Shown here in pieces: positions 13,247 through 42,033 of a stretch of 64,000 nt of DNA (the first letter of the stretch is position 1; every line of letters begins with the position of its first letter). The DNA comes from Prochlorococcus sp. AG-418-M08 (GTDB lineage Bacteria > Cyanobacteriota > Cyanobacteriia > PCC-6307 > Cyanobiaceae). The stretch is from contig QCMG01000008.1 of NCBI GenBank assembly GCA_003213955.1, positions 1-64,000 of the forward strand, written 5' to 3'. The translations under genes and the position numbers were made by a program. Under the pieces are notes generated by a model that worked only from the letters and a program-made list of their open reading frames with translations, searched no databases and had not been told where the DNA came from.

Positions 13247-13528
13247 AAAATTTAGAAATTTAGCTTAATCTAACTAAAAAAACTTATAATAAGGGTTTGT
13301 TTTTTAATTAAATCTGATTTGGTCGATACCTTAATAGATAACCATTAGATCTAATATTTGAAGTTGTTTAAAAATAAGCTCAAACAAGTCTTCAAAGAAA
13401 AAAAGAGTTAAAAGTTTAATCATTCGCTCGAGAAAAACAAATATTTCGGGATTAAATGAACTAGTTAAGGATTATGTATTCACATAATTATTATCAGGAA
13501 TAGAACTTAATTTTCTTGTAGGGGAGTA

Positions 13529-13711
13529 GTGGAAGCAACTCAACATGTTAAAGAGATAAATCCATTGATAATAACTCTAAAAAATATATGCAAGAAATTA
13601 GATCTAAAGAAAAATTTTGTTGGCAATAAAATTGTGCTGCAGTGCTTAACCACTCAATACTCTAAAAAAGTTGATATTTTTAAAAAATTAATTAGTGAAA
13701 ATGATTTTTAA
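13529..13711 (+). CDS. small hypothetical protein, 60 aa, GTG start
   Basis: Starts at GTG 13529 behind a GGGGAG ribosome-binding site about 4 bases upstream, which decides the start. Soluble, basic, with two cysteines (NICKKLDL, LQCLTTQ). Not recognised. Its end lies just before the hairpin at 13741-13766. Confidence 0.5.
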   Translation: MEATQHVKEINPLIITLKNICKKLDLKKNFVGNKIVLQCLTTQYSKKVDIFKKLISENDF

Positions 13712-13740
13712 TATAAATAAAAAATAAAATAAAATAAAAA

Positions 13741-13766
13741 AAAGACCCCTCAATAAGGGATCTTTA
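13741..13766 (-). terminator. intrinsic terminator (strong on minus strand)
   Basis: Inverted repeat AAAGACCCCT / AGGGATCTTT with one mismatch and a 5-base loop. On the minus strand it is followed by eight T and further T-rich sequence (13740 downward), so it ends the minus-strand Yfr2-like RNA. On the plus strand it is followed only by TTTAATGG, so it is a weaker terminator for the gene at 13529. Confidence 0.7.
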
Positions 13767-13825
13767 ATGGTTTTAAAAAATCAAGTGTTTCCTTGTTTCC
13801 ACTGATTTTATAAAACTTCTCCTAC
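13741..13825 (-). ncRNA. Yfr2-family-like small RNA
   Basis: On the minus strand, two copies of GGAAACA lie side by side, one within AGGAAACA. They sit in a loop closed by AAATCAGTG (13800-13808) and CACTTGATTT (13778-13787) with one bulged base. The intrinsic terminator at 13741-13766 follows. A GGAAACA/AGGAAACA loop plus 3' terminator is the layout of the cyanobacterial Yfr2-5 RNA family. A possible -10 box TAGATT lies at about 13830-13835, giving an RNA of roughly 85 nt. Ends are estimates. Confidence 0.6.
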
Positions 13826-13904
13826 ACACAATCTAACTATCACACGTATATCTCTGTGATGAAATACCTATTGGGCATCTATTTCAACTGTCACATGATT
13901 TTAA

Positions 13905-14015
13905 AACAAAAAGTACTCAAATATATGTTTGAGTACTTCGATTATCAGAAAAATGTGTGTGAGGAGTTTCTGACCTTATTAATTTACACCCAATTGAAAT
14001 TAAATAGCTACAGTA
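13905..14015 (-). ncRNA. candidate small RNA carrying the Yfr1 core motif in a loop
   Basis: Minus-strand RNA predicted from a TATACT -10 box (14022-14027), a hairpin and a terminator. The hairpin has a perfect 7-bp stem (13945-13951 with 13967-13973) and a 15-base loop that holds CTCCTCACACAC. The same 12-mer is in the true Yfr1 of this window (42004-42015), and the 11-base published motif ACTCCTCACAC is complete here at 13957-13967. The hairpin at 13911-13938 with a T-rich tail then ends it. No open frame of note. Ends are estimates. Confidence 0.5.
13911..13938 (-). terminator. intrinsic terminator of the Yfr1-motif RNA
   Basis: Perfect 11-bp inverted repeat AAGTACTCAAA / TTTGAGTACTT with a 6-base loop. 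On the minus strand it runs into TTTGTTTTAA. On the plus strand the flank is CGATTATC, so termination is on the minus strand. Confidence 0.65.
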
Positions 14016-14021
14016 TAAATT

Positions 14022-14027
14022 ACTAAT
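14022..14027 (-). promoter_or_regulatory. possible -10 box (TATACT)
   Basis: TATACT on the minus strand, about 50 bases upstream of the Yfr1-motif hairpin. It fits the loose TANNNT -10 of Prochlorococcus. There is no clear -35 element. Confidence 0.35.
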
Positions 14028-14093
14028 TTTTTTACGTTTTTTTATCATGGATAAATAAACCTAAGGTAAATGGAATTTACAAGTAATTTTTAT

Positions 14094-14240
14094 ATGAGAA
14101 AAAGATTCAAAAGGGTAATTTACATTTTTTCAGTAATTATCCTTTTTTCAATTATTGGAGGGGTTGTTAAATATTCTCTTAAATATATGGATAATAATCC
14201 TGATTTATATATCCCTAAAACAAAGTCTATACATACATAA
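14094..14240 (+). CDS. small single-pass membrane protein, 48 aa
   Basis: ATG at 14094, TAA at 14238-14240. A basic N-terminus (MRKRFKRVIY), one helix (IFSVIILFSIIGGVVKYSL) and a polar tail with DNNPDLYIPKTKS. The positive-inside pattern is convincing. Not recognised. Confidence 0.5.
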   Translation: MRKRFKRVIYIFSVIILFSIIGGVVKYSLKYMDNNPDLYIPKTKSIHT

Positions 14241-41974: not shown

Positions 41975-42033
41975 AAAAAAAGCCCGATAAATCGGGCGAT
42001 TTAGTGTGTGAGGAGCATGGGGTTTCCCCCATT
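41975..42033 (-). ncRNA. yfr1: Yfr1 small regulatory RNA
   Basis: Minus-strand RNA between guaB and trxA. Three parts are visible: 5' hairpin GGGG-GAAA-CCCC (42019-42030), the unpaired core CTCCTCACACAC (42004-42015) and a terminator hairpin (GCCCGAT 41982-41988 / ATCGGGC 41991-41997) followed by T. This is the classic Yfr1 layout and location. The core pairs with target mRNAs. A TATTAT -10 box sits just upstream (about 42037-42042). Confidence 0.95.

Follow-up and report, generated by a model that had tools for sequence, protein, structure and literature searches.

Yfr1, Yfr10 and Yfr2-type sRNAs in Prochlorococcus

The sRNAs that are closest to the element described here come from Prochlorococcus MED4, in which Yfr10, Yfr12 and Yfr18 have been detected (Steglich 2008, PMC2518516). 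In MED4, these three RNAs adjoin Yfr2, Yfr4 and Yfr5, and the Yfr1 motif was described in Yfr10 and Yfr18. Base-pairing of this motif with the 5′ end of the Yfr2-type RNAs was put forward as a proposal in the same study, which also reports a 270-nt precursor containing both Yfr10 and Yfr2. The expression of Yfr10 and Yfr18 was followed by Northern hybridization and 5′ RACE. Yfr18 occurs as species of 29 and 76 nt, and its mapped interval begins 67 nt 5′ of the hairpin. For Yfr18, the paper reports expression and proposes the pairing (PMC2518516).

The targets of two of these RNAs were compared more recently in MED4 (Lambrecht 2019, PMC6778093). The targetomes of Yfr1 and Yfr10 overlap, with common targets such as ppa. 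For Yfr1, almost half of its targets are not shared with Yfr10; for Yfr10, two thirds are not shared with Yfr1, and csoS1, csoS2, atpA and atpC are examples of these. Yfr2 pulls down Yfr1 and Yfr10, and the reverse also holds. With Yfr10 as bait, Yfr2 was only slightly enriched and Yfr3, Yfr4 and Yfr5 clearly. Moreover, Yfr2 relieves repression by Yfr1 in an E. coli reporter, and Yfr1 or Yfr10 protects Yfr2 from RNase E. In high-light strains, Yfr10 homologs are located upstream of Yfr2 homologs (PMC6778093). Yfr10 was the RNA used in that study, in the main text of which the term Yfr18 was not found.

A second copy of the Yfr1 motif and its RNA family

The DNA stretch analyzed here, further called the window, comprises 64,000 nucleotides of Prochlorococcus sp. 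AG-418-M08. The 12-mer CTCCTCACACAC occurs exactly twice in it, on the minus strand in each case (13955-13966 and 42004-42015), as compared to a mean of 0 copies in 100 dinucleotide shuffles. Both copies had been pointed out in an earlier note on this DNA; there is no third one in the window, and the source genome assembly has the 12-mer at these two sites and no others. The features of the locus, and the bearer of the other copy, are as follows.

13897..13974, minus strand: Yfr10-family sRNA (RF02362), orthologous by position to MED4 Yfr18; 74.5 bits (cut-off 43), model positions 1-78 of 78; synteny
13944..13974, minus strand: motif-bearing hairpin with 7 Watson-Crick pairs (8 with G-U) and a 15-nt loop; fold
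13955..13966, minus strand: Yfr1 core motif CTCCTCACACAC, in the loop; pattern search
13910..13939, minus strand: terminator-like hairpin with T-rich tail; 12 pairs, 3 of them G-C, 6-nt loop
13764..13831, minus strand: Cyano-1 RNA (RF01701), Yfr2-type sRNA, positional ortholog of MED4 Yfr5; 66.1 bits against a cut-off of 41, duplex of -17.6 kcal/mol
13741..13765, minus strand: terminator-like hairpin of the Cyano-1 RNA; hairpin scan
41979..42032, minus strand: Yfr1 (RF01116), bearer of the other motif copy; 53.8 bits against a cut-off of 38

The second copy of the Yfr1 motif is thus a member of the described family Yfr10, at the Yfr18 locus, and not a new discovery. It lies within the 15-nt loop CTCCTCACACACATT, closed by the stem TCAGAAA/TTTCTGA, the perfect 7-bp stem that the earlier note had seen; one G-U pair extends it to 8. 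After a short spacer there is a second hairpin of 11 Watson-Crick pairs (12 with G-U) with a 6-nt loop and the T-rich tail TTGTTTTAAA, in agreement with the 11-bp terminator hairpin and U tract reported before. The predicted fold of the 78-nt element consists of exactly these two hairpins (-18.9 kcal/mol; z = -5.03), and none of 200 shuffles folded as well. The motif ACUCCUCACAC is therefore displayed in a hairpin loop with a terminator hairpin 3′ of it, as is characteristic of Yfr10, the first A of this 11-mer being the final base of the stem. The arrangement of Yfr1, i.e., an RF01116 match with the motif single-stranded between two stem-loops, was not found at 13897-13974. It is the copy at 42004-42015 that falls inside an RF01116 match and was rightly called the true Yfr1. 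This Yfr1 reads GCTCCTCACACAC at 42003-42016 on the minus strand, with a G in place of the first A of the published 11-nt motif, which is why the 11-mer ACTCCTCACAC is found once and not twice in the source genome. The span of 13905-14030 that had been proposed for the element does contain both hairpins; the family match, however, covers 13897-13974, and a complementary RNA at 13764-13831 had been missed.

This complementary RNA is encoded downstream of the Yfr10-type RNA on the same strand, which is the position expected for a Yfr10 partner. It matches RF01701 and has the 5′ end GTGTGTAGGAG and the loop GGAAACAAGGAAACA of the Yfr2/Cyano-1 RNAs. Cyano-1 can be equated with the Yfr2 family because the Cyano-1 matches of MED4 adjoin Yfr10, Yfr12 and Yfr18, where the table in PMC2518516 places Yfr2, Yfr4 and Yfr5, and also because of GUGUGUAGGAG, which the paper gives as 5′ sequence. 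Together, the RF02362 and RF01701 matches identify the locus as a Yfr10-type and Yfr2-type tandem. Apart from a single bulged base, the 5′ end of the downstream RNA, TTGTGTGTAGGAG, is the complement of the Yfr1/Yfr10 motif. With the motif loop it is predicted to form a 12-pair duplex with one bulge at -17.6 kcal/mol; when this 5′ end was mononucleotide-shuffled 2000 times, no shuffle reached this value (mean -7.1, best -17.5).

The spacer at 13832-13896 (minus strand) contains, as seen by eye, the inverted repeats GAAATA...TATTTC and ATCACA...TGTGAT, which are candidate operators or additional hairpins. Near its 5′ end is a GTGACA that is present in all six aligned Yfr18-type loci and absent from MED4 Yfr10 and Yfr12. 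A second Cyano-1 RNA of the source genome, on another contig (G000:C15:17273-17337, minus strand), has no Yfr10-model match upstream and an altered 5′ end, GTGTGTAGGAATC in place of GTGTGTAGGAGAA.

The real transcript may differ from the 78-nt model, because MED4 Yfr18 consists of the 29- and 76-nt species mentioned above and its interval starts well 5′ of the hairpin. A consensus promoter scan gave no site on the minus strand 5′ of the hairpin; its total of three sites compares with 3.5 in shuffles. A TATACT at 14012-14017 (minus strand), 38 nt before the hairpin, could be a candidate -10 box with a 5′ end near 14005. The pattern [TA]ATAC[TC] is present in seven of eight aligned loci, the exception being MED4 Yfr12. 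The published interval of MED4 Yfr18, at 67 nt before the hairpin, starts further upstream than the equivalent of 14005.

Orthology to MED4 Yfr18

To which of the three MED4 loci the window corresponds was decided by position. One genome of the sample (G015) has Yfr10-model matches at 346661-346738, 383217-383296 and complement 972241-972321. The first of these coincides exactly with MED4 Yfr10 as published, whereas the other two overlap Yfr12 and Yfr18; this genome was taken as MED4 because its Yfr10-model coordinates agree with the published sRNAs. Eight proteins encoded in the window near the locus were compared with MED4: each of them matches the stretch around MED4 Yfr18, with 77-94% identity, and none matches the (shorter) stretches around MED4 Yfr10 or Yfr12. 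The step from the Yfr10-type RNA to Cyano-1 is 66 nt in the window, as compared to 63 nt at Yfr18, 88 nt at Yfr10 and 91 nt at Yfr12. Yfr1 lies 28,049 bases away in the window and 28,467 bases away in MED4. Since flanking genes, Cyano-1 spacing and distance to Yfr1 agree, the locus is orthologous to Yfr18-Yfr5 of MED4. The source genome is 98.8% complete and gave no other Yfr10-model match at E 0.1 or better among the 150 of 847 candidates that were scored.

Conservation in Prochlorococcus and other genomes

The family was searched in 61 Prochlorococcus genomes, the source genome included, and in 14 control genomes. Loci in this sample were picked by the Rfam models, which include the motifs, and stricter filters were applied at the cost of weak matches. 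The Yfr10 model matched at E 0.001 or better in 47 of the 61 genomes (over the cut-off in 45) and in 21 of the 22 with completeness of 90% or more and contamination of 5% or less. None of the 14 controls gave a Yfr10 match in this search; in a one-genome search, a match below the cut-off appeared in one of them, Bacillus subtilis. Cyano-1 was found in 50 of the 61 genomes and over the cut-off in one control, Synechococcus elongatus. Nearly every Yfr10-model match in the 61 genomes (72/73) is followed on its own strand by a Cyano-1 match within 300 nt, the spacing falling into two groups of 60-71 and 82-91 nt. Conversely, 16 of 88 Cyano-1 matches have no Yfr10 match upstream, at least one of which (G010:C9) carries the 12-mer at the right place. 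The only Yfr10-type match with no Cyano-1 in the 300 nt downstream is G021:C35:5511-5587. The highest numbers were seen in a genome given as 51% complete (G031), with six Yfr10 and six Cyano-1 matches; two of its pairs face each other on one contig, within 2 kb. On 23 contigs chosen by hand, two motif copies lie 24.6-34.0 kb apart, the second copy being presumed to be Yfr1; a 24th contig had one copy.

The earlier note had asked for conservation of stem and loop among relatives. Both TCAGAAA/TTTCTGA, the core of the stem, and the anti-motif GTGTGTAGGAG are intact in all of eight aligned loci; conservation of the loop is given by construction, as these loci, like the 15-mer matches below, were picked by the loop motif. 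The loop motif of MED4 Yfr12 is CATATAC, as published. A scan of genomes for the exact 15-mer gave at least 118 matching stretches. Among the matches listed, 51 have a stem of at least 8 pairs around the motif, and in all of these except one (L123) an anti-motif or Cyano-1 loop follows within 400 nt, as compared to one loose case (L099) among the other 67, which have shorter stems. All 35 listed matches titled Prochlorococcus or Synechococcaceae have a stem of 8-10 bp, and 34 of them a downstream anti-motif, L123 again being the one without. L123 thus is a Yfr10-type RNA with no Yfr2-type RNA found within 400 nt downstream, an exception to the tandem rule. Three other cyanobacterial matches have stems of 2-3 pairs, and the Yfr1 copy of the window has 2.

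From 30 model-picked loci (that of the window and L172-L200), 25 passed a filter on stem and loop, the others being L181, L184, L185, L186 and L190. Of the 25, 24 carry CTCCTCACACAC and one CTCCTCACACAA, and 23 have the anti-motif. The stem is nearly invariant (ATCAGAAA in 23 loci, GTCAGAAA in two); covariation therefore gives almost no support for it.

Viral contigs were scanned as well. The exact 15-mer was found in 47 stretches, three of which (L013, L015 and L022) have a stem of at least 6 pairs, and none of the 47 has a Yfr2-like anti-motif or Cyano-1 loop up to 400 nt downstream. An 18-mer scan for the Cyano-1 loop returned two stretches. Rfam, applied to 11 of 49 viral loci including both 18-mer matches, identified only a tRNA. 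A phage-borne copy of Yfr10 or Yfr2 was thus not found at exact 15-mer and 18-mer stringency, with Rfam on 11 of the 49 loci.

Probable regulatory role of the Yfr18-Yfr5 pair

The RNA of the window almost certainly belongs to the trans-acting sRNAs already known as the Yfr10 family (probability about 0.96). It is encoded at the Yfr18 locus just upstream of a Yfr2-type sRNA at the Yfr5 locus and would act as the MED4 work implies. Identity, predicted structure, synteny and complementarity come from the present analysis; transcription, targets and antagonism are transferred from MED4, where the experiments concerned Yfr1, Yfr10 and Yfr2. According to the predicted fold, the RNA at 13897-13974 would display the Yfr1 core motif in its hairpin loop. 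By analogy with MED4, this loop may base-pair with mRNAs, partly the same as those of Yfr1 and partly different ones. The Yfr2-type RNAs, with a 5′ end complementary to the motif, would bind and neutralize both the Yfr10-type RNAs and Yfr1. We infer that the Yfr18-Yfr5 pair of the window would work like the MED4 pairs.

It had been suspected that the second motif copy belongs to an undescribed RNA, a Yfr1 mimic that could share targets with Yfr1 or compete with it. Comparison with the published Yfr list, which the earlier note had advised, identifies the locus as Yfr10/Yfr18 (PMC2518516) and the RNA as RF02362, so that this suspicion was wrong; as a novelty claim, the mimic is refuted by Rfam RF02362 together with PMC2518516 and PMC6778093. 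The idea of shared targets fares better, as overlap was published for Yfr1 and Yfr10 in MED4, although many targets are unique to each (PMC6778093). Competition is not the relation that has been described: the antagonist described for both RNAs is of the Yfr2 type, and the window has such an RNA directly downstream of the element. A new mimic or decoy competing with Yfr1 would fit the same 12-nt motif in a different structural setting, but RNA, motif, structure and neighbor are all already in print and in Rfam, and the sRNA partner described for the motif is the Yfr2-type RNA, which makes this reading very improbable. Even less credible is a chance motif in untranscribed DNA or in a small ORF. 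Two ORFs of 56 and 43 codons (13856-14026 on the plus strand and 13917-14048 on the minus strand) do overlap the locus; the full-length Rfam match and the fold z-score of -5.03 speak against this explanation, as do the stem and anti-motif that are intact in 8/8 aligned loci picked by the loop motif alone.

A mainly cis-acting arrangement is less improbable than these two, although we consider it rather unlikely. In this arrangement, the sRNA and its Yfr2-type antagonist would reside in one precursor with motif and anti-motif paired, and processing would set the free amounts of each. The 239-nt stretch 13736-13974 is indeed predicted to fold with the motif paired to the anti-motif, a Yfr10-Yfr2 precursor is known in MED4 (PMC2518516), and the tandem spacing is tightly kept. 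However, the terminator-like hairpin between the two RNAs, which stays formed in the predicted precursor fold, would part them, and the published tests show pairing in trans (PMC6778093). In this rather unlikely case, Yfr18-Yfr5 would be the one sRNA-plus-sponge unit found in this strain, about 28 kb from Yfr1 in many Prochlorococcus genomes, and processing of a cis-paired precursor would set the ratio of free sRNA to free sponge. If true, this would represent a variation on the titration model that has been published.

The trans-acting Yfr18-Yfr5 reading amounts to a known family member at its expected place. The annotated RNA family settles the identity of the motif copy, and the likely partner is supplied by the Yfr2-type RNA just downstream. 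Motif sharing, the hairpin-loop setting and the Yfr2-type neighbor are already published; added here are the assignment to the Yfr18-Yfr5 locus and genus-wide counts of how firmly its two members stay adjacent. To the Yfr1/Yfr10/Yfr2 network, which is of genuine interest in Prochlorococcus, this locus contributes only these counts and a strain-level Yfr18-Yfr5 ortholog.

Comparison with known systems

The Yfr2 family, or Cyano-1 (RF01701), is complementary to the motif and encoded just downstream, and is therefore a partner and not the same RNA. Yfr1 (RF01116) has the identical 12-nt core motif, but presents it single-stranded between two stem-loops, according to both its fold and PMC6778093, whereas the element of the window has it in a loop. 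MED4 Yfr10 (RF02362) shares with the element the family model, the motif in a hairpin loop, the terminator hairpin and the Yfr2-type RNA downstream. It differs in its genomic site, which is genomic island 1, in a loop ending in ACTAA instead of ACATT, and in the longer step to its Yfr2-type RNA (88 versus 66 nt). MED4 Yfr18 is the closest counterpart. Its DNA identity to the window is 73% over 13439-14225, which represents ordinary divergence, and it has the same flanking genes, the same strand arrangement with the Yfr2-type RNA, a similar distance to Yfr1 and an identical hairpin core and loop TCAGAAACTCCTCACACACATTTTTCTGA.
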